Origin: Candidatus Zixiibacteriota bacterium
GTDB taxonomy: Bacteria; Zixibacteria; MSB-5A5; GN15; PGXB01
NCBI GenBank assembly: GCA_040753495.1
Contig: JBFMEF010000134.1
Location: 1-34,627 of the forward strand
DNA: 34,627 nt
Direction: 5' to 3'
A model generated the notes under the pieces. It worked only from the letters and a program-made list of their open reading frames with translations, did no database searches and was not told where the DNA came from. Positions 1,055-26,289 of the stretch are shown here, one piece after another (the first letter of the stretch is position 1; the number at the start of each line of letters is the position of its first letter). The position numbers and the translations under genes were made by a program.

Positions 1055-2038
1055 CTACGCTTTTTTGCCGGACATGCGGCAGATATTCAAAATCAGTCTC
1101 TCCAACACCAGTTTCTCCGGCTTAATATTTCCGCGCAAGTCGCGGTCGGCTTCGGACAGCAGAAGTATAATATCTTCTACCTGGGCGTTGTCGAATCGTG
1201 CCGCCTGTTGACGATACTTGCCGGTCATCCATTTCCGAAATGGCGGCAGCGGCTTCTCATTCTTGACAAAATATAGCTCCTGAAAATGATTACTCAACCA
1301 GAAAAAAACGCCCGATTCTTTCTCGCCGCTGTTGAGCATATTTTCCAGCATTGCCAGAGCCTGGTCAAAATCGCCCGCGGCCACATAGTCGCCCAGTTCA
1401 AAGACTTTGAACGCCTGGTAATCGGCGCTGAGACAAGCCACATCTTCACGGCTGATCTTTCCCCCTTCACCGGCATAATTGATAAGTTTATTTATTTCCT
1501 CGGTCAGCCCCCCCATATCACCGGCGCTCAGCTCCAGCAGAAGTCTTACCGCCTCTCTATCAATCTCAATCTTATGCTCCGCCAGAGTTGAAACTATCTT
1601 ACGCTCCGCGACATCGCTGCGGACTTTTCCGAATTCCACTTCCGCCGTCTTCTTAATCAGAAGTTTTATTGCCGCCGCATCTTTCTTGTACTTGGCAGCC
1701 GGTGTCACCAAAATTACAACCCGGTTGGGGTCGGGCGGGCTCAGAAGCGACAATATCTTCTCGACTTCCGAAGGCACCAGCGATTGAATATCATTTATGG
1801 TAAAAACCTGACGTTCCCCCAGCATCGGCACTACCGCCAGTTCATTGAGAATATCCTGCAGCTTACCTTTGGCGGCAGTCAGGGTGATATGATTGACAGA
1901 GACCAGCGACTTCGGAAGAAAACAGGAAACCAGTTTTTTCTCGGCTTCCTTCATCCGATAATCTTCCGAGCCGTAGAAATAGTAAACCGGCTTAAACTTG
2001 CCGGATTCAATTTCGCGATTGAGTTCCGCCGGTGTCAC
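1055..2038 (-). CDS. holA: DNA polymerase III delta subunit (clamp-loader)
   Basis: A 327-residue protein with the HolA layout. It opens with ELNREIESGKFKPVYYFYGSE, the usual N-terminus of the family. An AAA+-like region with EVEKILSLLSPPDPNRVVIL follows, and the C-terminal collar domain is helical. HolA is the clamp-loader subunit that opens the beta sliding clamp. The family lacks a working Walker A, and none is seen here. The start is GTG at 2038 with no clear Shine-Dalgarno, but it gives the expected N-terminus. It lies 32 bases after an RNase H-like gene and 5 bases ahead of the sigma factor ATG, so one operon is likely. Confidence 0.92.
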   Translation of the reverse strand: MTPAELNREIESGKFKPVYYFYGSEDYRMKEAEKKLVSCFLPKSLVSVNHITLTAAKGKLQDILNELAVVPMLGERQVFTINDIQSLVPSEVEKILSLLSPPDPNRVVILVTPAAKYKKDAAAIKLLIKKTAEVEFGKVRSDVAERKIVSTLAEHKIEIDREAVRLLLELSAGDMGGLTEEINKLINYAGEGGKISREDVACLSADYQAFKVFELGDYVAAGDFDQALAMLENMLNSGEKESGVFFWLSNHFQELYFVKNEKPLPPFRKWMTGKYRQQAARFDNAQVEDIILLLSEADRDLRGNIKPEKLVLERLILNICRMSGKKA

Positions 2039-11527: not shown

Positions 11528-12963
11528 TTCAGATGGTATTGTTTTATTTTTCTGTAAAGAGTTCTCTCGCCGATTCCCAGTTTTTGGGCGGCCGCTTTTC
11601 TGTTGCCGCCGGTTTCCCGCAGCACCTCGGCAATAAGCTGCCGCTCCATATCCTGCATTGAGCCACCCGTCTTCCCCGAAAAGGAGGTCCCGCGCTCGAA
11701 CTCGCCATTGATTCCGTTTTGTGACGGCAGGTTAGCGGTAATCAGGTCGCGAAGCATTCTAATCTCGTTTCCCAGGGAAAGAAGCGCCCGATATATCAGC
11801 TCATGCCCCGCTTCCTCCGGTGTATGGCCCGTCGCTACCGGCAGATTCTTTTGCGAAATTCCCTGCTCCCGGACAAACTGCTCCACTTCCCGCTCCGTTA
11901 TTTCATCGCGCCGATGAAGCGCTCCCATACGAGTAACGAAGTTGCGCAGTTGCCGCACATTGCCGGGCCAGTCGTAGCGAAGAAGCGTCTCGACCGCCCC
12001 ATCGGTGAATCCTTTCAGATTCTCCCGAGAAGCAAAATGAAAAAGCAGCGGTAGAATATCTTCTCGTCTCTCATATAGCGCCGGAAGCATAATCTTAACC
12101 ACACCCAGACGAAAATAAAGATCTTCTCGAAATTGCCCCTCTTTTATCGCCTCGGTCAGGTCGCGATTGGTGGCGGCAATTACCCGCGCATCGGAACGGG
12201 CCGGTTTATCGCCGCCGACCGGATAGAATATCCCGTCTTCCAGCACTCGCAGAAGTTTCACCTGCATATCCGGTCTGGTTTCGCCGATTTCGTCAAGGAA
12301 AATGGTTCCACCATTAGCTTGAACAAAAAGCCCCTCCCGTTTGCCGACCGAACCGGTGAAAGCGCCTTTCTCGTGCCCGAATAACTCAGATTCCAGCACG
12401 CCTTCCGCCAGCGCCCCGCAATTCACCGCGACAAACGATCCCGAAGAACGCGATGAATTCTCATGTATCGCCCGCGCCACCAGTTCCTTGCCGCTTCCCG
12501 AGGGTCCGATAATCAATATCGAAATATCGGTCGGAGCAATCTTCTCTATTGTTTCCGCCACCAGTTTCATCTGCTCCGAGCGCCCCACAATTTGGAATTT
12601 TCTCAGAAGCGCTTTCTGATGATATATCTGCTTTATCTTCTCTTCCAATCTTTCCATTCCGGCGTCGAGGGAAATGGAGCCGTCGTAGAATCCATCATCA
12701 GCCGCAACCGGCGACGGCTGAAACCGTCGCAAAAGCCAGATATCAGTCAGAGGGGAGCGCAGTCGCAGTTTCCGGATGAGACCGGCATTGATACCGGGAA
12801 AATCGGCTTCAATCAGAATCAGTTCCACGGCCCGCTCTTTCAGCGCATTGTATAGGGGGGAGATATCATGATGCAATTCTCCCAGTTCGGCCAGCCGGTT
12901 TTCGAGGGACGGTTCCCGGAGCAGAGTCTCACGCCGGATAAGTGTCGCCAGCGAAGCGCTCAT
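11524..12963 (-). CDS. Sigma-54-dependent transcriptional activator with degenerate receiver domain
   Basis: A 479-residue NtrC-family protein. Residues 1-118 look like a reduced receiver (VELILIEADFPGINAGLIRK). The position where the phospho-Asp would sit reads EADFPG, and the usual acidic triad and Lys are not evident. The AAA+ domain begins near 126. Walker A is GPSGSGKE (153-160), the sigma-54 contact loop reads GAFTGS (200-205) instead of GAFTGA, and Walker B is IFLDE (221-225). The C-terminal 40 residues form a Fis-type helix-turn-helix (GNRKAAAQKLGIGERTLYRK). It sits between RNase R and the surface-protein genes with 4-base overlaps on both sides. It probably controls envelope genes, perhaps its own operon, but no clear -24/-12 element was found nearby. 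Confidence 0.9.
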   Translation of the reverse strand: MSASLATLIRRETLLREPSLENRLAELGELHHDISPLYNALKERAVELILIEADFPGINAGLIRKLRLRSPLTDIWLLRRFQPSPVAADDGFYDGSISLDAGMERLEEKIKQIYHQKALLRKFQIVGRSEQMKLVAETIEKIAPTDISILIIGPSGSGKELVARAIHENSSRSSGSFVAVNCGALAEGVLESELFGHEKGAFTGSVGKREGLFVQANGGTIFLDEIGETRPDMQVKLLRVLEDGIFYPVGGDKPARSDARVIAATNRDLTEAIKEGQFREDLYFRLGVVKIMLPALYERREDILPLLFHFASRENLKGFTDGAVETLLRYDWPGNVRQLRNFVTRMGALHRRDEITEREVEQFVREQGISQKNLPVATGHTPEEAGHELIYRALLSLGNEIRMLRDLITANLPSQNGINGEFERGTSFSGKTGGSMQDMERQLIAEVLRETGGNRKAAAQKLGIGERTLYRKIKQYHLN

Positions 12964-15107
12964 CGGCGGTATCTTCTCCCTTTGCGACTTTTTTTCTTGC
13001 TCCCTTCCGGCTGAATCAGATACAGATTAATTTCATTCCGCGACTTATCCACCGACATTACCCCGACACGAACGGTATCGCCTAAACGGAAAATTCTGCC
13101 GGTGGCGTTACCCACCAGCCGAAAATGCTTGGGGTCGAATTTGTAGTAATCATCTTCCAGGGTCGATAGACGAACCATTCCTTCGGCGCCGATATCGGCC
13201 AACCGCACAAAGAAACCGAAGTTCAGAATGCCGGAAATTACGCCGTTATATTCCTGGCCTATCTTTTCCGCCATATAGGCGACCTGCTTCACTTTAATCG
13301 CCTCGCGCTCGGCCGCTTCGGCGTTTCGTTCAGTTTCAGAGCAGTGTCGCCCGACATTGGTCAGAATGGCATCAATTCTCTTATACAGCTTCTCCGGGTA
13401 ACGACCTGTTTTCAGCTTCTTGAGAAGACGGTGCACAATCAGGTCGGGGTAGCGGCGAATCGGCGATGTAAAATGAGTATAATGCGAAAACGCCAGCCCG
13501 AAATGGCCTATATTCTGCGGCTGATAAACCGCCTTTTTCATCGAGCGAAGCATCAGCTCATTCAAAAGCTCCTCTTCCGGTTTCCCCTTTATCTTATCGA
13601 GAAAGCGGGCGAACTGAAGCGGCTTCATATGGTCGCTGACCGGAAAATTGTACCCCAGGGTGGAGACAAGATAAGAGAACGCTTCCAGTTTTTCCAGGTC
13701 CGGTTTATCATGCACCCGGTAGAGGAACTTTTGCCCGAGGCGGAAAACATGCAGCGCCACCACACGATTGGCGGCAAGCATGAATTCCTCAATGAGACGA
13801 TGCGATTCCAGTCTCACGCGGTTACCGATTTCGACTATCTCACCGCGCGAGTTAAGAATTATCTTCGCCTCCGGCAGGTCGAAATCGAGAGACCCTTCCA
13901 ACATCCGCTTTCTGGTCAGAACAGCCGCGAGCTGCCGCGCCAGAGAAAGGTTTTCGGCAACCTTACCCATTCCGTCTGATGACTGCCCCTTATCAAAATA
14001 TTCCTGGACCTCTTCGTATGACAGTTTGGCGCGGGAATTTATTACCCCCTCAGTGATTTCGTAGCCGAGGACTTTCCCATTATCGTCAAACTCGATAATA
14101 GTGGCATAGACCAGCCGTTTCCGGTTCGGCTTCAAAGAGCAGAGGTCATTTGACAACTTTTCCGGCAGCATCGGGATAACCGAGCCGGGAAGATAAACCG
14201 AGTTGCCGCGACGGAAGGCTTCCTTATCCAGTTCGCTTCCTTCCGGCACAAAGTGGGACACATCGGCGATAAAAACCCCCAAACGATAACCGCGCGCGGT
14301 CTTCTGCACCGAGATGGCATCATCATGGTCTTTGGCATCTTCCGGGTCGATGGTATAGATTGTCTCACCGGTAAAATCGCGACGTCGCCCTATTTCGTCC
14401 TGGCTAAAAAGCTTCTCAGCCATCTCCACCTCGGCCATTACTTCCGGGCGAAATTTATCGGCAAGTTGATAATTACGAATCACCGTCAAAAGGTCAACCC
14501 CCGGCTCATACGGCATCCCCAGACGCTCCGTTACCTCCCCTTCCGGATTAGTCAGATAATCTTCCCATTCGCTGACGCGAACCACCACCTTTTCGCCGTC
14601 ACGCGCCTTACGAGAATACTGGTTGGGGATATAGATATCCCGATGAATCTTGCGGTCGTCAGGAACGACATAATTGAAATTCTTCTTGGCGCGGAAGGTG
14701 CCGACTATATCGCGCCCCGAGCGCTCAATCACTTTAATCACCTTTCCCGAGAGTTCATCCTCAGGACCGGTCCCGACCCGCACCATAACTTTGTCGCCGT
14801 CAAGCGCCGTAAGAGTGTCATCCGGAAGAATCACGACCGGTTCGCCAGCCTCAGTCGTAATCGTGCCGTACCCGCCTTTGGAAATGGAGATGTTTCCTAT
14901 TACAAGGTTGAGCGCCGCCGGTACGCCGAGGCGATTGCTCTTAAGGAGCACCAACCGCCCCGACTCGGTAAGCTTGCGCACCATGGTTCGAAATGCGGAG
15001 TAATCGCGCTCAGCAATGTTAAGGGCTTTGGCAAGATCTCGAACCTTCAGCGGCCGTCCCGCCTTATAGGCGAGAAAATCAATAATGAATTGTTCATTTG
15101 GTATCAT
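12960..15107 (-). CDS. rnr: Ribonuclease R
   Basis: A 715-residue 3'-to-5' exoribonuclease of the RNR/RNase II family. A winged-helix-like N-terminus covers residues 1-60. Two cold-shock domains lie at about 65-200 and the RNB catalytic domain at about 240-570. The active-site motif IDPEDAKDHDDAI supplies D254, D260, D262 and D263. An S1 domain occupies about 620-705, and the tail is basic (KKKSRKGRRYRR). It degrades structured RNA. It heads the six-gene operon. No Shine-Dalgarno precedes ATG 15107, and a promoter lies directly upstream, so the mRNA may be leaderless. The ATG choice fits the family N-terminus (NEQFIIDFLAYKAGRPLKV). Confidence 0.96.
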   Translation of the reverse strand: MIPNEQFIIDFLAYKAGRPLKVRDLAKALNIAERDYSAFRTMVRKLTESGRLVLLKSNRLGVPAALNLVIGNISISKGGYGTITTEAGEPVVILPDDTLTALDGDKVMVRVGTGPEDELSGKVIKVIERSGRDIVGTFRAKKNFNYVVPDDRKIHRDIYIPNQYSRKARDGEKVVVRVSEWEDYLTNPEGEVTERLGMPYEPGVDLLTVIRNYQLADKFRPEVMAEVEMAEKLFSQDEIGRRRDFTGETIYTIDPEDAKDHDDAISVQKTARGYRLGVFIADVSHFVPEGSELDKEAFRRGNSVYLPGSVIPMLPEKLSNDLCSLKPNRKRLVYATIIEFDDNGKVLGYEITEGVINSRAKLSYEEVQEYFDKGQSSDGMGKVAENLSLARQLAAVLTRKRMLEGSLDFDLPEAKIILNSRGEIVEIGNRVRLESHRLIEEFMLAANRVVALHVFRLGQKFLYRVHDKPDLEKLEAFSYLVSTLGYNFPVSDHMKPLQFARFLDKIKGKPEEELLNELMLRSMKKAVYQPQNIGHFGLAFSHYTHFTSPIRRYPDLIVHRLLKKLKTGRYPEKLYKRIDAILTNVGRHCSETERNAEAAEREAIKVKQVAYMAEKIGQEYNGVISGILNFGFFVRLADIGAEGMVRLSTLEDDYYKFDPKHFRLVGNATGRIFRLGDTVRVGVMSVDKSRNEINLYLIQPEGSKKKSRKGRRYRR

Positions 15108-15229: not shown

Positions 15230-15259
15230 AAATGAAAAGGCAGGCTAATAGCCTGCCTT
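15230..15259 (-). terminator. Rho-independent terminator of the sigma/Spy operon
   Basis: A 10-base perfect stem (AAGGCAGGCT at 15237-15246 with AGCCTGCCTT at 15250-15259) has a 3-base loop. Read on the minus strand it is followed by TTTTCATTTTG. It lies 25 bases after the stop of the last Spy-like gene and insulates it from rnr. Confidence 0.9.
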
Positions 15260-15283: not shown

Positions 15284-15862
15284 TTACATCCGACGGCACG
15301 GGAAGTCGCAGTTCATTCTGTGGCCATGCGGCCCGCTTCCATCGCAGCTTCCCCAGCCTCTGCCGTCTTTTTGACCGGCTCGGCCCGGACCGTCACCGCG
15401 CCCCATACCGGGTCTCAATTCCTGAAGTTTCTTCAGTTGCTCAGCATTCAGGACTGCGGAAACTCTCTGGCGATGCTGATACTGCATCTTGCGCATCTCG
15501 GTTTTTAAGGCTCCTACCTTATCGATGGCGGCAAGGACTTCCTTTTCCGGAGCGTTGGAGATTCTCAGATGACGAAGCTTGACCTGGGCTTTCTCCAATT
15601 CAGCCTCCTTGTCGATGCGGAGGATGGCATGCTCCTCATTCATCTTCAGAATCTGCGCTTTCTGGCTCTCGTCCAGACCGATTTCATCAGCCAGGCGAAG
15701 CAGCATCCCCGGACGGCCCATATCATCATCATCAAAACATCCTGCGGGACCTCCGCCCGGATGGCCGAGACCTCGTCCTCCTCCCCGTTGACCCGGGTCG
15801 GCGGCGACATAGACTGCGCTCAGCAGGAAGGCGATGGCAGTCAGGGTGATCAGGCGTTTCAT
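15284..15862 (-). CDS. Spy/CpxP-like periplasmic protein with Cys/His-rich tail
   Basis: A 192-residue protein with a signal peptide (MKRLITLTAIAFLLSAVYVAA). The mature N-terminus is Gly-rich (RGGGRGLGHPGGG), followed by CFDDDD. The helical core carries two LTxxQ-type motifs (LDESQ and LNAEQ), the mark of the Spy/CpxP/ZraP family of periplasmic chaperones and metal sensors. The C-terminus is rich in Gly, His and Cys (SGPHGHRMNCDFPCRRM), suggesting metal binding or disulfides (inference). It is the last gene of the ECF sigma operon, 37 bases after a second Spy-like gene, and just before the terminator. A role in sensing or buffering envelope metal or folding stress is likely. Confidence 0.82.
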   Translation of the reverse strand: MKRLITLTAIAFLLSAVYVAADPGQRGGGRGLGHPGGGPAGCFDDDDMGRPGMLLRLADEIGLDESQKAQILKMNEEHAILRIDKEAELEKAQVKLRHLRISNAPEKEVLAAIDKVGALKTEMRKMQYQHRQRVSAVLNAEQLKKLQELRPGMGRGDGPGRAGQKDGRGWGSCDGSGPHGHRMNCDFPCRRM

Positions 15863-15899
15863 AGCATTTCTCCTTTCAAATAATGTTAAATCATTTCGC

Positions 15900-16412
15900 T
15901 TAAGGCTCCAGCGGCGGCATATGCTTCATGCGGAAGCCGCGCACGCTCGAAATCAATTCTCTTTCAAAGCGCTCCTCGAAAACGGTGGCTCTGCCCAGTT
16001 GCACTGCGGTTAGGATTCCGGCAATATCCTTATGGAACCGGTTTATGCTCTGGTGGCGTTTCTCCCGCAGGTCGTCAATCAGCGCCACCAACTTGCGAAT
16101 TTCGTTTTCGGACGGGTTCTCGCTCTTAAGTATTTCCGCCAGTTTATCCACTTCCTTCTGGATAGATTCCGCGATCTCCCGGTCCTCTTTGCGGAAAGAG
16201 ACAAAGCGAGAGATAAACCGGCTGCTCTGCTCCTCGGAGAGCTCGAGAAATTCCATCATTTTCAGCAGCCGCAGATTCTCCAGGTTGCGCGCTCGCTGTT
16301 CCGGGTCGCCGCGGCCGGCCCATTCCGGAGGTTGGGCAAAGGAGAGCGACGGCATCATTATCAGAAGGAGCGTCAGCAGAGCGCCGATATGAATGAAAGA
16401 GATTCTTTTCAT
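15900..16412 (-). CDS. Spy/CpxP/CnrX-like periplasmic protein
   Basis: A 170-residue protein with a signal peptide (cleavage after SLSFA, about residue 26). It is mostly helical, with the two LTxxQ-type motifs LSEEQ and LTAVQ about 75 residues apart, as in Spy, CpxP and the metal sensor CnrX. Its start overlaps the anti-sigma stop by 4 bases, so synthesis is coupled to the anti-sigma factor. In CnrYXH a periplasmic protein of this fold controls release of the sigma factor by the anti-sigma factor, and the gene order here fits that role (inference). It lacks the Cys/His-rich tail of its neighbour, so the two Spy-like proteins probably divide labour. Confidence 0.8.
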   Translation of the reverse strand: MKRISFIHIGALLTLLLIMMPSLSFAQPPEWAGRGDPEQRARNLENLRLLKMMEFLELSEEQSSRFISRFVSFRKEDREIAESIQKEVDKLAEILKSENPSENEIRKLVALIDDLREKRHQSINRFHKDIAGILTAVQLGRATVFEERFERELISSVRGFRMKHMPPLEP

Positions 16413-16990
16413 AGTATATCCCCTATCTTGAAATTTTTCCTGATATATTCGAGTTCTTCTGATGATAATTCTCCCAGCAGAATATCGCCGGTATTATATC
16501 CGTAACTGCGGGCATAATCGGAAACTACTACCCGCAGGTAAGACTCATCTATGACCGGGTCGTCATCCGTCAACAACGCCGCTTCCTCCGCCATCAGAGA
16601 TTCAATTGCGGAATCAATATTAGACGCCACTTGCGCCTCCGGTCCGAAACTAAAACCGGGGAACTGCAGACGATTGGCAAAAACAAGAAAAAGCAACAGC
16701 GCCATTGCTGCCGCCAGCGCGCTGTAGCGGAGGGCAAGATTATGACCGTTTTGAAGACGCTCCCGGTATTTTGAAATTTTCTCATCAAGCGCCGCCTGAA
16801 AGCCAACCGACTCCGAGGGAGTCAGGGAATGAATTTTCGATTTGCGCAGAGTGCTATCAAGCGATTGCAACTGGTCAAGAATACCGGCACAATCGCGGCA
16901 ATCACCCAGGTGTCTTTTCTCCTCCGGGGTCAGAGCGCTCGCATTCATCGCAAGGAGCAGCTTTTCCTGTATGGGACGACACTCCTTCAT
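16409..16990 (-). CDS. Zinc-finger anti-sigma factor, membrane anchored
   Basis: A 193-residue protein. The cytoplasmic N-terminus has the zinc anti-sigma motif HxxxCxxC (H27, C31, C34) after C4. A single membrane helix lies at about 87-105 (ALAAAMALLLFLVFA). The periplasmic part is acidic (EEAALLTDDDPVIDES). It begins 1 base after the sigma stop and ends inside the start of the Spy-like gene. It would hold the sigma factor at the membrane until a periplasmic signal arrives. The N-terminus resembles the anti-sigma factor at 1-446, consistent with a common origin. Confidence 0.88.
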   Translation of the reverse strand: MKECRPIQEKLLLAMNASALTPEEKRHLGDCRDCAGILDQLQSLDSTLRKSKIHSLTPSESVGFQAALDEKISKYRERLQNGHNLALRYSALAAAMALLLFLVFANRLQFPGFSFGPEAQVASNIDSAIESLMAEEAALLTDDDPVIDESYLRVVVSDYARSYGYNTGDILLGELSSEELEYIRKNFKIGDIL

Positions 16991-16991
16991 C

Positions 16992-17531
16992 TCAACGCAA
17001 CTCCTTTAAACTCAGGCGCAATTTCTCAATTGCCTTCTGGTAGTTGGTCTTGACAGTCGATTCGCTCTTTTTCAGAATCCTGGCTATCTCCACGAAAGAG
17101 AGTTCCTGATAATATCTAAGGTTGAAAATCAGCTTCTGCTTGGCGGGTAGTTCATCAACTCTCTTCAGGAGCGCGGCGCTGACTTCGGTATTCTCGATAC
17201 TACTCTCCATCTCCACGGTCGGCTCGGAGCCCTGCAATCGCGCCAGCGGTAAAAAGGAAAGAATCTTGCGCCGTTTGAGATAGTTGAGAGTCTTGTTTGA
17301 CGCCACCCGGTAAAGCCATGAAGAGAAATTAGCCTCCTGGCGGAAACGGCTCAGTTCTTTATATGCCGTGAAGAAAGTATCCTGCATCAAATCGAGTGCC
17401 GTTTCGCGGTCACCGGTCATCCTGTATATAAGGGCAAACATATTATCTCTATTATTCCTGACTAACTCGTCAAACGCCTTCCGGTCGCCGGCTTTCGCCT
17501 TTGAAACCAATTCCCTGTCATCTAATCCCAT
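16992..17531 (-). CDS. ECF-type RNA polymerase sigma factor
   Basis: A 179-residue sigma-70 family protein. Region 2 lies at about 22-90 (core TALDLMQDTFFTAYKELSRF, followed by WLYRVASNKTLNYLKRRK). Region 4 is at about 125-175 (QKLIFNLRYYQELSFVEIA, then KKSESTVKTNYQKAIEKL). It leads a four-gene operon with its anti-sigma factor and two Spy-like proteins, and the whole unit is closed by a terminator. Start ATG 17531 matches the family N-terminus although no strong ribosome site is visible. Autoregulation would be usual for the family, but no clear ECF promoter (GAAC plus a second box) was identified upstream. Confidence 0.92.
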   Translation of the reverse strand: MGLDDRELVSKAKAGDRKAFDELVRNNRDNMFALIYRMTGDRETALDLMQDTFFTAYKELSRFRQEANFSSWLYRVASNKTLNYLKRRKILSFLPLARLQGSEPTVEMESSIENTEVSAALLKRVDELPAKQKLIFNLRYYQELSFVEIARILKKSESTVKTNYQKAIEKLRLSLKELR

Positions 17532-17582
17532 CAGTTCTGTTTCTTTTAATAGTTAGACAGTCAATATCTAAAAAAGACTAAC

Positions 17583-17613
17583 AAAAAAGGCAAACTATTC
17601 CAAGTTTGCCTTT
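17583..17613 (-). terminator. Rho-independent terminator downstream of mreB
   Basis: An 11-base perfect stem (AAAGGCAAACT at 17586-17596 with AGTTTGCCTTT at 17603-17613) has a 6-base loop, and on the minus strand a T-run (TTTTTT) follows. It sits 32 bases after the mreB stop and separates mreB from the sigma operon. Confidence 0.93.
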
Positions 17614-17644: not shown

Positions 17645-18736
17645 CTAATCGCGACGACTCTTCATTAAGACTTTAGAAAACATCTGCATATTTTCAAGCA
17701 CTTTGCCAGTCCCACGAACGACACATGTAAGGGGGTCCTCGGCAACATTGACAGGAAGATTAGTCTCCTGGCGAAGTCTCTTATCCAAGCCTCGCAGAAG
17801 GGCGCCGCCGCCGGTCAGAATGATTCCACGCTCAAGAATATCGGAGGCCAGCTCCGGGGGGGTCCGCTCCAGCGACTGGCGAACCGCTTCCACTATTCGC
17901 TCTATAGGCTCCACCAGGGCTTCCCGCACCTGCACCGATGAGAGTTTGAGATTCTTGGGCACTCCGGCGACCAGGTCGCGCCCCTTGATTTCCATCGAGA
18001 GTTCTTTCTCCAGCGGAAAAGCGGAGCCGATTTTGATTTTGATCTCCTCAGCGGTCAGCTCACCAATAAGCAGATTGTAATTTTTCTTTAGATACATGAC
18101 GATAGAGTCATTCATCTCATCCCCGGCAATCCGGACTGAGATATTATTGACAATACCGTTCAAAGCGATGACGGCGATTTCAGAAGTGCCACCGCCGATA
18201 TCGATTATCATGATGCCGGAGGGCTGGTCTACTGGAAGTCCTACCCCGATCGCGGCTGCCATCGGTTCCTGCAGCAGGAATACTTCCCGGGCGCCGGCAT
18301 TTTCCGCCGAATCACGGACCGCCCGCTTCTCCACTTCGGTTATACCGGACGGGACCGAAATCACTATGCGGGGTTTCATCAGGTAACGATGTTTCACCAC
18401 GCGGCGGATGAAATCGGAAAGCAATTTTTCGGAAATTTCAAAGTCGGCAATGACGCCGTCTTTCAGCGGACGGATAGCGGCAATCTCACCGGGAGTTCGT
18501 CCCAGCATCTCTTTTGCCGCCGAGCCAACGGCAAGGACTTTGCCGCTGGTTTTTTCAACAGCAACCACCGACGGTTCATTGAGAACGATTCCCTGCCCCC
18601 GCACAAAAACCAGCGTATTGGCGGTTCCTAAGTCGATCCCGATGTCATTTGAAAAGAGGTCAAAAAAACCCAACGTTGATCCTTTTCCGTAAGGGGTGGC
18701 GGCGCTTTCTTTGTTTTTTAACTCGAACTGGGGCAT
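17645..18736 (-). CDS. mreB: Rod-shape-determining actin homologue MreB
   Basis: A protein of up to 363 residues with the actin/Hsp70 fold. The first phosphate loop is [20 protein letters not shown], phosphate 2 is [13 protein letters not shown], and the adenosine motif is [16 protein letters not shown]. MreB filaments guide lateral wall synthesis. Two starts are possible. ATG 18736 has GGTGA upstream and adds 21 residues not typical of the family. TTG 18673 gives [15 protein letters not shown] right after the start, the usual MreB N-terminus, with AAAGGA 6 bases upstream and a length of 342 residues. A promoter whose -10 touches ATG 18736 favours the TTG start. mreC and mreD are not adjacent. 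Confidence 0.95.
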
Positions 18737-21337: not shown

Positions 21338-22039
21338 TTACCACTGCATTCTGTATATCCGCTGACCCCCGCCCGGTTTGGAGGCAAATATTCGGAAGAG
21401 GAGCCAGCCGAAGGCAAATCCCCCCACATGAGCCAGCCAGGCGACCCCACCGCCTGCTCCCGACGACATAGCCGACATTAGAATCTGATAGAAAAACCAG
21501 AAACCGAGCACGACGGCGGCAGGGATTTTAACCACGCGAATAAAATATAAAAGAAATATCAAGGTATGAATTCTGGCACGGGGATAAAGCACCAGATAAG
21601 CGCCAAGAAGTCCGGCAATGGCTCCGGATGCCCCCACCAGGGGTATCTGAGAGTTCGGAGAAAAGAGAATGAAAAGACCGTCAGCGGCAAAACCGGCCGC
21701 AATATAAAAGAGCAGAAAGCGAAAATGCCCCAGATGGTCTTCGATATTATTCCCGAAGACCCAGAGAAAGAGCATATTCCCGGCAAGATGCATTATGCCA
21801 CCGTGCAGGAACATACTGGTCAAGAGTGTCAGGAATATCGGAGATGGCAGCCGGGGGGTTAGTTCTGTCATGTGAGTGATTTCATATGGAATCAGTCCGT
21901 ATTGCACAACAAATGCCTGAAATCCTTCTATTCCCCGGGTCATCGAGAGAATATAAACCAGAGTATTGACCACAATAATGGCAACGGTCAGAACCGGCTT
22001 GCGTTGAGTAGGATTGTCATCTTTCAGCGGAAAGAACAT
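21338..22039 (-). CDS. Rhomboid family intramembrane serine protease
   Basis: A 233-residue membrane protein with about six hydrophobic helices. Catalytic residues are visible: Ser138 in GASGAIAG and His204 in AHVGG. The HLAGNM motif (H84, N88) is in the second helix and would help form the oxyanion hole. The family cleaves membrane-spanning substrates within or near the bilayer. It follows the M23 peptidase gene by 18 bases, with AAAGGA about 9 bases ahead of ATG 22039, so the two are likely co-transcribed. The substrate is unknown; an envelope protein made in the same operon is possible but unproven. Confidence 0.93.
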   Translation of the reverse strand: MFFPLKDDNPTQRKPVLTVAIIVVNTLVYILSMTRGIEGFQAFVVQYGLIPYEITHMTELTPRLPSPIFLTLLTSMFLHGGIMHLAGNMLFLWVFGNNIEDHLGHFRFLLFYIAAGFAADGLFILFSPNSQIPLVGASGAIAGLLGAYLVLYPRARIHTLIFLLYFIRVVKIPAAVVLGFWFFYQILMSAMSSGAGGGVAWLAHVGGFAFGWLLFRIFASKPGGGQRIYRMQW

Positions 22040-22057: not shown

Positions 22058-24304
22058 TCATTTGGTATAAAAGGACGATTTTACCGTCCGGCTGTTTCCT
22101 GCCATATCGGTCGCCCGGATTTCCAGAGTATGCCTTCCTGGCGACAACGGTCGCGCCGGCTCCGCTTTCACCAGCAACAATTCCGGGTCATATTCCGGAA
22201 TAACCCACTCGCCGTCGATAAGAATGGTCAGCTGCTGGTCGCTTCCGATTCCGGAAAGATTATCGCTCAAAGCAAATCTCACTTTAGGCCGAGCCCCAGG
22301 CACCGTCTTGCCGTCTCCCGGAGTTATCTGGGAAATCCGGGGCGCTTCATCATCTTTAAGCAACGTGAAGGCTCCTAAAGCGCTGGAACTGGCGCTGAAC
22401 CACCCCCCAACTGATTTGGGGGTTATCCAGGACCAGCCGTTATCTTTGTTCAGTTTTCCGATGCCGATTTTCTCAGGGGGCAATGAGTCAGTATAATGAA
22501 TTGATACAACGACTGCTTCTGCCAGAGGGACAATTGCCGGTTCCACAGCATAGACTGGACTCAAAATATCGCGCTTCTCCGGAAACCAGCCGGATTTCTC
22601 AAATCCTGTCGCAAAAAGTGGTTGATAAAAATTCGACCTCTTAGATACGATTCTGAATCCCTCAACCGGCTCCAGAATCTTCTCGCGGTCGCTGAAACCG
22701 AGGAGATGAATATCGACCGCGACACTGTCCAGGAGAATATCGCCCGAATAAAGTTTGAAGGCTGTGATTTTGCTCGCCACGGTATGGTTGCGATAGAACC
22801 CGGCAAAACGATTGTTTGCGGTAGGAGTCATCATCATATTTTCGATATAGCCGTCATCGTAAACGATGTTTATTGATGGAGTCGGTGGGGCTATATCGCG
22901 CGAAGCGGCTCGAAAAAGTATGCCTCCATCGGTCAGGGAATGGCTCCAGTCATATCGCTGGCTGACTTTGAGATTTAAAGGCAGAGATTGGTCATCTTTA
23001 CGCCAGGCGGAGCTTCCCACCACTTCGATTTTCAGGGCTTTCCAGCGCGATGATTCCGGCGGTAGAATGACCCGATAGTCGGAGCGACCCCTTTTCTCAA
23101 TATGGTTTGCGCGAACTCTTTTCCAGGCGGAGCCGGAGGCAAGGCTATATACCTGGATTCGGTCGATATCGAGGAACTGAACATTAGGCTGCGCCACCAG
23201 ATAGAAGATAGTATCATTGACCCACTCCGGTCGGAAGAGAGGTCCCTGGGGATGAAAAGTAAACTTAAACAGCAGTTCCGACTTATTGCCGGCGGCGTCA
23301 TAAATCTCGATTCGTCCGTTATGCAATCCGAAGGAGTTCTCATTGACGAAAGTAAAAACGCCGCCCTCTTTATAAAGTGACTGGCTGCCGCTAAAATCCT
23401 TACCGGGGGGATTATAAAGAAGATGCTGATAATCTTTGTCAGAAACAGCCGCTTCATAATCAAACAGGAGGTCAACCATTTTTGTCTCGGCGTAATCATA
23501 CCGGTCAAAACTGTTCTCGTAAGTGATATAATCGTCAATCAGCAGACGAACACGATATATATTCAGCCGCGGTCCCTGCGGGCGAATACGGTCAAACGTT
23601 TTGATTTTCAAGCCAAAGGGTCCCGAAAGCGCTATGGTGGAATCTACGACATATTTTTTCAGTTCTCTGTCATAAGACAGATTAACGGTCATAGAGCGTC
23701 CGCCGCTGGGAAAGACCGAAACATCGTCAACATAATTGAATCCAAGCGCCTCGACCACGGGTGGAGACTTGTCCTCTACCGGAAAGCCATTGGTCAATGG
23801 ATTGAGAGGTAGATTTGTCGGCGTGCGCTTTTCGAAATGAAGATGGGGCGGTCCCGCGCCGGTCTGACCGGAATATGCCAGAAGTTCTCCCCGCTTTACC
23901 ACAAGGGAGTCGTCGCCAAAATATTGGTCGATAGAATATCGTTTTTGACGGTACTGCTCATTTCTTATAACCTTTTCGAAGCGGTCCGCCAATCGCGATA
24001 AATGCCCAAAGACGTATATATACCCGGAGCTGTCTTTCAGATATATTGATTTGCCGTAGCCATAATAAGAATAGCGGATTCTCCAGATATAGCCGTCAAC
24101 CGGCGCAAAGACCTCGCGCCCTTCGGCGCCGCCGGTTCGGATATCGATGCCGCCGTGAAAATGGCCCGCTCGAAAATCGCAGAATGACGAAGACAGGTCA
24201 ACCGCCCCCCGGACAGGCCAGGACACATCTTGTCCGCGGGCTATATTCGCCCCGGTCAGGAGAAGCGCTAATATTCCAAATGTCGTGACCGATAAGTTAC
24301 GCAT
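22058..24304 (-). CDS. Secreted M23-family metallopeptidase with long C-terminal extension
   Basis: A 748-residue protein with a signal peptide (cleavage near residue 24). The N-terminal LytM/M23 domain spans about 40-165 and has the zinc motif HxxxD (H50, D54), H101 in FGHL, and HxH (H154, H156) in PPHLHFEKR, so it should be active. A beta-rich 450-residue region of unknown role follows. The C-terminal 100 residues (DEAPRISQITPGDGKTVPG to the end) look like an Ig-like sandwich. M23 enzymes cut peptide cross-links in peptidoglycan. The catalytic domain is at the front, unlike many divisome M23 proteins. The promoter is very close to the ATG and no Shine-Dalgarno is seen. Confidence 0.9.
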   Translation of the reverse strand: MRNLSVTTFGILALLLTGANIARGQDVSWPVRGAVDLSSSFCDFRAGHFHGGIDIRTGGAEGREVFAPVDGYIWRIRYSYYGYGKSIYLKDSSGYIYVFGHLSRLADRFEKVIRNEQYRQKRYSIDQYFGDDSLVVKRGELLAYSGQTGAGPPHLHFEKRTPTNLPLNPLTNGFPVEDKSPPVVEALGFNYVDDVSVFPSGGRSMTVNLSYDRELKKYVVDSTIALSGPFGLKIKTFDRIRPQGPRLNIYRVRLLIDDYITYENSFDRYDYAETKMVDLLFDYEAAVSDKDYQHLLYNPPGKDFSGSQSLYKEGGVFTFVNENSFGLHNGRIEIYDAAGNKSELLFKFTFHPQGPLFRPEWVNDTIFYLVAQPNVQFLDIDRIQVYSLASGSAWKRVRANHIEKRGRSDYRVILPPESSRWKALKIEVVGSSAWRKDDQSLPLNLKVSQRYDWSHSLTDGGILFRAASRDIAPPTPSINIVYDDGYIENMMMTPTANNRFAGFYRNHTVASKITAFKLYSGDILLDSVAVDIHLLGFSDREKILEPVEGFRIVSKRSNFYQPLFATGFEKSGWFPEKRDILSPVYAVEPAIVPLAEAVVVSIHYTDSLPPEKIGIGKLNKDNGWSWITPKSVGGWFSASSSALGAFTLLKDDEAPRISQITPGDGKTVPGARPKVRFALSDNLSGIGSDQQLTILIDGEWVIPEYDPELLLVKAEPARPLSPGRHTLEIRATDMAGNSRTVKSSFYTK

Positions 24305-24456: not shown

Positions 24457-26289
24457 ATGTTTGCTTTCTTGAGAAAACTCATCGTCCCTATTATGGCGAC
24501 GGTGCTGGTATTCTTTCTGGCGACCATTGTGTTCGAATGGGGAATGAATATCTCTTCCTCCAGCCGTTTCAGCGACACTATCGGGATTATCAACGGCCAG
24601 GAGATTGGGATGCGTGATTTTGACCGTTATTACGGCGCTATGCTGCGGGAAGAGCAGGACAAAGTTGACTATGACCTTCCCCAGGAAAAAGTGAACGAAA
24701 TCAAAAACCAGGCCTGGAACCGTCTGGTGGGCGATTACCTTATTAATCAGCAAATAGAGAAACACAAGATACATGTCAGTGGTGAAGAAATCTATGGTTA
24801 CCTCAGGCTCTATCCCCCGCAGGAGCTTCAGACCACCCCGGCTTTCCTGACTGACGGGAAATTCGACTATCAGAAATATGTCAATGCGATGGCGAATCCG
24901 GAATATGCCCCTTTCTGGGCATCGGTAGAGAATTTCGTTCTGCCGGAATTGAAAAGATACAAACTGCAGGAAGAGATAATCAATACTATCCGGGTGACGC
25001 CGTCCGAAGTGATGGAAGCCTTTATGGAAGAGAAGGAGACGGTTCGCATCGGCTACCTGAATGTTCCGGTATCGCAGATGCTCGCCAATGTCGGGGTAAT
25101 CAGCAAGGAAGACCTTCAGAAGTACTATGATGAGCACAAAGAAGATTATCGGTTGGAACGGCGGGCAACGCTCGACCTGGTCATTTTCCAGAAAGAACCA
25201 TCGGAGAACGACTGGGAGCGGGTCGGTCGGGAGATTAAAGAGATTTATGATTCGGTAATTGCCGGTGGCGACTTTGGAGAACTGGCAAAGACTTTCTCGC
25301 AGGACAATTCCGCCGCCGGCGGCGGCGACCTCGGTTGGTTCGCGCGGGGACAGATGGTTCCCCAGTTTGACAGTGTTGCCTGGGCTTTGCAGATGAATCA
25401 GGTCAGCCCTCCTTTCCGGACCCGCTTTGGCTGGCATATTGTCAAGCTGTTGGGTCGGCGGACTGACAAAGAGACCCCGCCCGGGGCGACAGCGCCGGTA
25501 TCAACAGAAAAAATTAATGCCGCCCATATACTGCTCAAGGTGGGTCCATCGAGTGAAACGGTGGAGCAACTGGCGCTGAAGGGCCAGGAATTTATAGAGC
25601 TCGCCCGGCAGAAAGGATTTGAGAAGGCGGTGGAAGAGTTAGGTCTGGAAACGCGCTCCACCAAACCTTTTCAGAGAGGCGAATATATTCAGTATGTCGG
25701 CGAAGACAGGCAGCTTTCCGACTTCGCCTTTGATAGTAAACCGGGAACCATCTCGGACGTTTTAGAGAATTCCGCTATGCTCTTTGTGGCAAAGGTTGCG
25801 TCGCATCTACCCGAAGGGTACACTCCTTTCGAGGAAGTGGAAAAAGCGATAAATCAAAAACTGAGTCTGGAGCGCGCCAGGGAGCTGGCCGTCAAAGAGG
25901 CTGAAGAAGTATACGACCTCATAAAATCGGGGACACCTATCGAAAAGGTCGGAGAAAACAAAGGGTATCCCTATGCCACGACGGAGAATATCACGCGCAA
26001 ATCGTCTATTCCAGGTCTGGGACGAGTCCCCGAGATAATAGGAATGGCGTTTGCCATGCAGTCGTACGGGGACATTTCCCGTCCGATTCCCCATGACAAC
26101 GGCGCCGCCATTATAAGACTGCTGGAGAGGACATCGCCGAATCTTGAAGATTTCAACCGCGCTCAGGATTCAATAAGAGTCGCCGTGTTGCAGAAGAAAC
26201 AACAGGATTTGTATGGGCGCTGGTTTGAAAACCTGGTGCAGAATTCCAAAATCGAGAATTTCGTAGACAAATTCTACAGCGGAACCTGA
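24457..26289 (+). CDS. PpiD/SurA-like membrane-anchored peptidyl-prolyl isomerase
   Basis: A 610-residue protein. An N-terminal membrane anchor (about 8-28, LIVPIMATVLVFFLATIVF) is followed by a SurA-N-like chaperone region (about 40-200, RDFDRYYGAMLREEQDKVDY). A parvulin domain lies at about 225-340 (SQDNSAAGGGDLGWFARG, then FRTRFGWHIVKLL). A second parvulin-like segment starts at about 352 (INAAHILLKVG) but lacks the Gly-rich DLGWF part, so it is probably inactive or non-catalytic. The architecture matches PpiD, which helps newly exported proteins fold at the inner membrane. AAGGAG precedes the ATG by 8 bases. A terminator follows immediately. Confidence 0.9.
   Translation: MFAFLRKLIVPIMATVLVFFLATIVFEWGMNISSSSRFSDTIGIINGQEIGMRDFDRYYGAMLREEQDKVDYDLPQEKVNEIKNQAWNRLVGDYLINQQIEKHKIHVSGEEIYGYLRLYPPQELQTTPAFLTDGKFDYQKYVNAMANPEYAPFWASVENFVLPELKRYKLQEEIINTIRVTPSEVMEAFMEEKETVRIGYLNVPVSQMLANVGVISKEDLQKYYDEHKEDYRLERRATLDLVIFQKEPSENDWERVGREIKEIYDSVIAGGDFGELAKTFSQDNSAAGGGDLGWFARGQMVPQFDSVAWALQMNQVSPPFRTRFGWHIVKLLGRRTDKETPPGATAPVSTEKINAAHILLKVGPSSETVEQLALKGQEFIELARQKGFEKAVEELGLETRSTKPFQRGEYIQYVGEDRQLSDFAFDSKPGTISDVLENSAMLFVAKVASHLPEGYTPFEEVEKAINQKLSLERARELAVKEAEEVYDLIKSGTPIEKVGENKGYPYATTENITRKSSIPGLGRVPEIIGMAFAMQSYGDISRPIPHDNGAAIIRLLERTSPNLEDFNRAQDSIRVAVLQKKQQDLYGRWFENLVQNSKIENFVDKFYSGT

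Follow-up and report, generated by a model that had tools for sequence, protein, structure and literature searches.

The DNA analysed here carries a four-gene operon encoding an ECF sigma factor, a membrane anti-sigma factor, and two different Spy-like proteins (Spy A and Spy B), and its function most likely lies in envelope stress. We give roughly even weight to the fuller reading that this operon of the Zixibacteria regulates itself, is inherited vertically, and responds to envelope stress, with Spy A acting as the gate on the anti-sigma factor and Spy B as an effector. The operon, its conservation, its promoter, the regulon candidates, and the protein folds were computed here. The window, i.e., the whole stretch of DNA that was analysed, comprises 34,627 nucleotides and derives from a 3.08-Mb metagenome-assembled genome. 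The operon and its surroundings contain the following features:

17645 to 18736, minus strand: mreB, the conserved upstream neighbour, identified by synteny
17586 to 17613, minus strand: terminator of mreB, directly upstream of the sigma promoter
17553 to 17581, minus strand: ECF-type promoter TTAGTC-N16-TGTCTAA, whose end lies 21 nt ahead of the start codon of sigma; an exact match in the window's own genome
16992 to 17531, minus strand: ECF sigma factor gene (179 aa), with Pfam Sigma70_r2/r4_2 and NCBIfam sigma70-ECF matches above cut-off
16409 to 16990, minus strand: membrane anti-sigma gene (193 aa), with a class-I-type zinc motif, one transmembrane segment, and a periplasmic C-terminal half
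16889 to 16912, minus strand: zinc motif H27-x3-C31-x2-C34 of the anti-sigma factor, read from the sequence
16667 to 16738, minus strand: predicted transmembrane segment of the anti-sigma factor (about residues 85-108), a hydrophobic stretch read from the sequence
16412 to 16480, minus strand: C-terminal periplasmic motif of the anti-sigma factor, LLGELSSEELEYIRKNFKIGDIL-COOH (residues 171-193), defined by conservation
15900 to 16412, minus strand: Spy A gene (Spy-like, 170 aa), with a signal peptide; fold from AlphaFold2 and Foldseek
15284 to 15862, minus strand: Spy B gene (Spy-like, 192 aa), with a signal peptide and a Cys/His-containing tail; fold from AlphaFold2 and Foldseek
15287 to 15403, minus strand: residues 154-192 of Spy B, a Gly-rich tail with Cys and His, defined by composition and conservation; low-confidence and probably disordered
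15237 to 15259, minus strand: intrinsic terminator of the operon, a 10-bp stem followed by a T-rich tail on the minus strand
12960 to 15107, minus strand: rnr (RNase R), the conserved downstream neighbour, identified by synteny

The sigma and anti-sigma genes are separated by 1 nt, the anti-sigma and Spy A genes overlap by 4 nt (ATGA), and 37 nt lie between Spy A and Spy B. The order given in an earlier note on this DNA, namely sigma factor, membrane zinc anti-sigma factor, and two Spy-like proteins closed by a terminator, was found to be correct in strand and coordinates. This four-gene arrangement lies far beyond chance, since the same order recurs across the phylum. Other ECF systems are present in the window's genome, in which seven anti-sigma profile matches were found in all; one further ECF sigma gene (450-1052) lies in the window itself, adjoined by a zinc anti-sigma-like frame (78-374), the two together spanning positions 78-1052 of the minus strand. 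Near the operon, genes encoding a rhomboid protease (21338-22039), an M23 peptidase (22058-24304), and a SurA/PpiD-like PPIase (24457-26289) are situated. The rhomboid protease could be named as a candidate for cleavage of the anti-sigma factor, which is purely speculative.

A single-sequence search identified anti-sigma orthologues in 56 of the 80 genomes of the order. Among loci chosen by their anti-sigma match, so that the counts describe the cohesion of the block and not its frequency, the four genes recurred in the same order in the 30 loci fetched, and the block was also present in 25 named loci, mostly as mreB-sigma-antisigma-SpyA-SpyB-rnr. A further 16 loci, drawn from other families within the order and class, all carried sigma, anti-sigma, and Spy A, and 15 of them Spy B, the exception being L223, where Spy B was not found. 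In L007, the contig edge was reached before Spy B. Locus L031 (genome G049) has an in-frame TAA early in Spy A (positions 1420-1490, minus strand), due to either a point nonsense mutation or an assembly error. Within the two nearest families (f1, the window's own family, and f2), an overlap of 1-4 nt between the anti-sigma and Spy A genes, corresponding to translational coupling, was near universal. Because the gene order is kept across the phylum, mostly between mreB and rnr, the operon is, judged by synteny, a core and vertically inherited element of Candidatus Zixiibacteriota and not a mobile metal cassette. The record of the genome nearest to the window's (L032, DYGG01000015.1) names Ignavibacterium, but at this locus it groups with relatives from the Zixibacteria, and it is probably a mislabelled metagenome-assembled genome.

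The sigma factor possesses regions 2 and 4 only, both matched above the family cut-offs (Sigma70_r2, 2.6e-16; r4_2, 6.9e-14), in agreement with its assignment to the ECF sigma factors. Its promoter is located immediately after the mreB terminator. The pattern TTARTC-N16/17-TGTCWWA, searched as TTARTC-N16/17-[TG]GTC[TA][TA]A, was found upstream of the sigma gene in nearly every f1/f2 locus, and the sigma promoters of L014 and L026 are variants that were recognised by eye. Across the order, the pattern gave 89 matches, of which about 40 were sigma promoters, against 36 for a reversed-pattern control (counted by hand); this total is not impressive by itself, and the evidence lies in the position and recurrence of the sites. 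Given this shared promoter, the sigma factor would itself read these sites, and the operon would be autoregulated.

For the candidate regulon, 40 sites were followed up, chosen by sequence with a preference for T-rich spacers and before their genes were seen; one of them (L132) is a sigma-operon promoter. The sites were mostly intergenic, with three of 40 falling within ORFs of at least 150 aa compared to 22 of 30 for the reversed-pattern control. The downstream ORFs formed recurring families, the sizes of which differed slightly between strict and loose rules for choosing the ORF, while control ORFs hardly clustered. The candidates comprised a Gly-tailed lipoprotein (9 loci), HlyD/MacA-type adaptors (5 loci; Pfam HlyD_D23 in the one tested), a second lipoprotein (4 loci), OmpR-type response regulators (3 loci), a small secreted CDGSGP-containing protein (3 loci), and murA (2 loci and the window's own genome). 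The Gly-tailed lipoprotein (L107, L111, L117, L120, L124, L128, L129, L136, and L137) has a Gly/Arg/Met-rich tail with the promoter motif repeatedly ahead of the gene; no Pfam match was obtained for the two members scanned, and a search with one query detected no homologue in the window's genome. The small secreted proteins of L121, L123, and L146 combine DGDG-type stretches resembling Ca-binding sites with CDGSGP motifs, and the CDGSGP string also occurs in the tail of the window's Spy B. In the window's own genome, convincing sites were restricted to the operon and murA, and the murA site is kept in f1 only in the closest genera. When two mismatches were allowed, the scan of this genome (G000) yielded six matches versus 11 for the reversed control; loose matches were left unused because of this lack of excess. 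One own-genome match (L075) was discarded as a promoter, being inside a reading frame. The candidate regulon and the neighbouring genes, including murA, lipoproteins, ABC-type adaptors, and mreB, look like an envelope-stress response.

The anti-sigma factor carries the Hx3Cx2C motif in its N-terminal cytoplasmic domain and its gene adjoins that of the sigma factor, placing it in class I (ASD-I); the assignment rests on motif and context, since no Pfam anti-sigma domain was matched. The zinc motif was kept in 29 of the 30 sequences of alignment A3 and in 22 of the 26 of alignment A6; it was lost in L036 (from the same genome as L026), L040, L044, and L049, where the C-terminal motif is still there. 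Such losses agree with the observation that many class I anti-sigma factors lack a zinc motif and that these motifs can have a structural role (PMC7406223). Within the two nearest families, conservation of the protein is highest at its extreme periplasmic C-terminus, where the last 23 residues average 2.97 bits per column; the zinc domain and the periplasmic part preceding residue 165 average 2.11 and 1.35 bits, respectively. The consensus there reads ...EEL.YL..N...GDIL-COOH, and the last two residues are [ILF]L in all 30 sequences of A3. In deep families the end differs (-MEI, -KNIS, -GSA, and others) and the exact -LL is not kept, while an acidic EEL-type helix remains. The simplest inference from this conservation is a dedicated periplasmic partner of the C-terminal segment, for which Spy A, with its gene coupled to that of the anti-sigma factor and present at all loci examined, is the leading candidate.

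Both Spy proteins belong to the Spy/CpxP/CnrX/ZraP superfamily, as indicated by a helical hairpin periplasmic fold, LTxxQ-type motifs, and a signal peptide in each. The window sequences matched Pfam Metal_resist (Spy A, 3.3e-5; Spy B, 5.4e-4), both singly below the curated cut-off; among the aligned orthologues, 13 of 29 for Spy A and 19 of 26 for Spy B matched this family, and 23 of the 26 Spy B orthologues matched LTXXQ. Spy A displays LSEEQ...LTAVQ motifs and weak profile matches to CpxP/Spy, and profile comparison indicated that the two proteins are homologous to each other (98.5%). The AlphaFold2 model of Spy A reached a pLDDT of 85.7, while that of Spy B has a core above 90 and a low-confidence or disordered linker and tail. 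In Foldseek searches, CpxP/CnrX ranked first for Spy A, with Spy and ZraP also matched (probability 0.85-1.00), and CnrX ranked first for Spy B, with NccX also present; no match for either protein had an E-value below 0.001, weak E-values being usual for short helical bundles. VIA-align Z-scores alone were not taken as proof because many unrelated helical bundles also scored 9-11. For these reasons, the fold assignment relies on motif, profile, and predicted fold pointing the same way. Compared with the known Spy/CpxP/ZraP (LTXXQ, Metal_resist) proteins, with which they share the fold, the motifs, the signal peptide, and, in Spy B, Gly/Met/His/Cys-rich segments, the operon encodes two coupled subfamilies with motifs of their own (for Spy A, LENLRLLK.ME and ERFERELI..VRGF). 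The presence of two different Spy/CnrX-fold proteins in one sigma/anti-sigma operon, as the earlier note had read it, is thereby backed by motifs, profiles, and predicted folds. The two-step division of labour that it suggested is plausible, given the deep, strongly conserved stretches and translational coupling of Spy A on the one hand and the variable Cys/His/Met-rich segments of Spy B on the other; the specific analogy to a CnrYXH metal sensor is not supported.

Activation by envelope stress, docking of Spy A on the anti-sigma tail, its titration, and the role of Spy B are inferred. In the proposed mechanism, the membrane anti-sigma factor would hold the ECF sigma factor until envelope damage, i.e., misfolded periplasmic protein or damage producing it, frees the latter, which would then transcribe its own operon through TTARTC-N16/17-TGTCWWA together with a small envelope regulon. 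Spy A may act as a periplasmic gate riding on the conserved C-terminal segment of the anti-sigma factor and protecting it while unoccupied, and unfolded protein would titrate Spy A away, as proposed for RseB/RseA, CpxP/CpxA, and CnrX/CnrY. Spy B would be an abundant effector chaperone, the Gly-rich Cys/His/Met segments of which may also bind metal; it might serve as a chaperone or as a metal buffer. In its strictest form, as a chaperone-titration switch in which Spy A directly caps a dedicated docking peptide at the C-terminus of the class I anti-sigma factor, occupancy of the chaperone by unfolded protein sets sigma activity, and Spy B provides feedback as effector, the proposal is tentative and leans towards the unlikely. 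In the RpoE-RseA-RseB and Cpx (CpxP/CpxA) systems, a periplasmic accessory protein is likewise thought to restrain a membrane regulator, a chaperone is part of a feedback loop, and the targets belong to the envelope; RseB is not Spy-fold, and CpxP differs from the proposed gate in acting on a histidine kinase, not on an anti-sigma factor.

No paper on an envelope-stress or sigma system of the Zixibacteria was found in the open-access library searched. The best precedent, by arrangement, is CirYZ-Spy of Phocaeicola vulgatus. There, spy is co-transcribed with the ECF sigma/anti-sigma pair CirY/CirZ, and the sigma factor strongly raises expression of its own gene, of spy, and of two genes with a possible action on peptidoglycan (PMC13114119, 2026); induction in colitis is stress-like and the autoregulated regulon is small (PMC13114119). 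In both cases sigma, anti-sigma, and spy are co-oriented in one operon, with autoregulation here suggested by the promoter. The Phocaeicola vulgatus genome has two separate operons with one Spy per sigma factor, in contrast to the two different Spy paralogues in one operon seen here, which also differs in its phylum, its mreB/rnr location, and its depth of conservation. The same precedent of autoregulated spy genes downstream of sigma/anti-sigma pairs (CirYZ-Spy, PMC13114119) lends itself to another explanation, possible though on balance rather doubtful, in which both Spy proteins are effectors only and the anti-sigma factor is under regulated proteolysis, with its C-terminal peptide being recognised, or shielded, by a periplasmic protease or a PDZ protein. 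A carboxylate-binding (PDZ-type) domain would be expected to read just such a fixed hydrophobic -[IL]L end as f1/f2 show, but this idea leaves the families with a different terminus unexplained, and a pure effector role fits poorly with a Spy A that overlaps the anti-sigma gene, is found at every locus examined, and has strongly conserved stretches.

A third explanation, which we consider improbable, is that of a CnrYXH-like metal sensor, in which transition-metal binding by one of the Spy proteins is signalled to the anti-sigma factor so that the sigma factor is released. In Cupriavidus, CnrYXH and NccYXH likewise encode a Spy-fold periplasmic protein with an ECF sigma factor and a membrane anti-sigma factor, and the structural matches to CnrX and NccX are in line with this resemblance. 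CnrX binds Co/Ni through ligands that include the essential Met123 and acts on CnrY (PMC7689651), a class II anti-sigma factor (PMC7406223), and an RND efflux pump is linked to these systems. In Spy B, the core His130 is near-invariant (24 of 26) and Met is frequent at positions 123/126; a match of these residues to the CnrX ligands is putative. The N-linker of Spy B consists of about 20% Cys, His, and Met compared to about 10% in the core, and that of L016 (minus strand) has tandem CGKHGGQGMM / GQGMM.CGKHGG-type repeats, possibly metal-binding. The tail, in which the earlier note saw apparent metal ligands, does contain three Cys and two His in 39 residues but as a metal site is lineage-specific, with some Cys in 11 of 12 f1 loci versus five of 14 aligned f2 loci, and the ligands shift between tail and linker among families. 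Metal binding by Spy B is plausible, but the gene context does not point to a role in metal sensing. In Spy A, which is the coupled protein, no core Cys/His/Met column was conserved in over half of alignment A1. No metal efflux pump genes adjoin the operon, the neighbours being mreB and rnr in most loci examined; the Hx3Cx2C motif sets the anti-sigma factor apart from class II; the sigma gene comes first in the operon; and the candidate regulon is of envelope type. The CnrYXH reading of the earlier note thus finds only partial support, its specific metal-sensor analogy not being borne out, and a metal-resistance cassette is unlikely given the vertical synteny with mreB/rnr, the lack of a pump, and the lack of a conserved Spy A site.

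Regarding which Spy protein tracks the anti-sigma factor, partial tree-distance correlations within f1/f2 linked its periplasmic half to Spy A (0.43) above Spy B (0.27), and its cytoplasmic half to the sigma factor (0.51) and hardly to Spy A (0.06). When all 54 loci including the deep families were considered, Spy B was the closer correlate of the periplasmic half (0.44, against 0.31 for Spy A), so that tree distances give weak and mixed, suggestive only, support for a Spy A link. The resulting possibility that Spy B is the gate on the anti-sigma factor and Spy A a general chaperone seems highly improbable, as f1/f2 taken alone give the opposite ranking (Spy A ahead of Spy B in 96% of resamples) and Spy B was not found in L223 despite the presence of sigma, anti-sigma, and Spy A.

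If true, the chaperone-titration switch would be a main system for envelope stress throughout an uncultured phylum. The operon, its conserved promoter, and the short list of predicted targets lend themselves to tests in a laboratory host, and the well-defined candidate interface between the 23 C-terminal residues of the anti-sigma factor and Spy A bears on the problem of how Spy/CpxP-type proteins hold their regulators in check.
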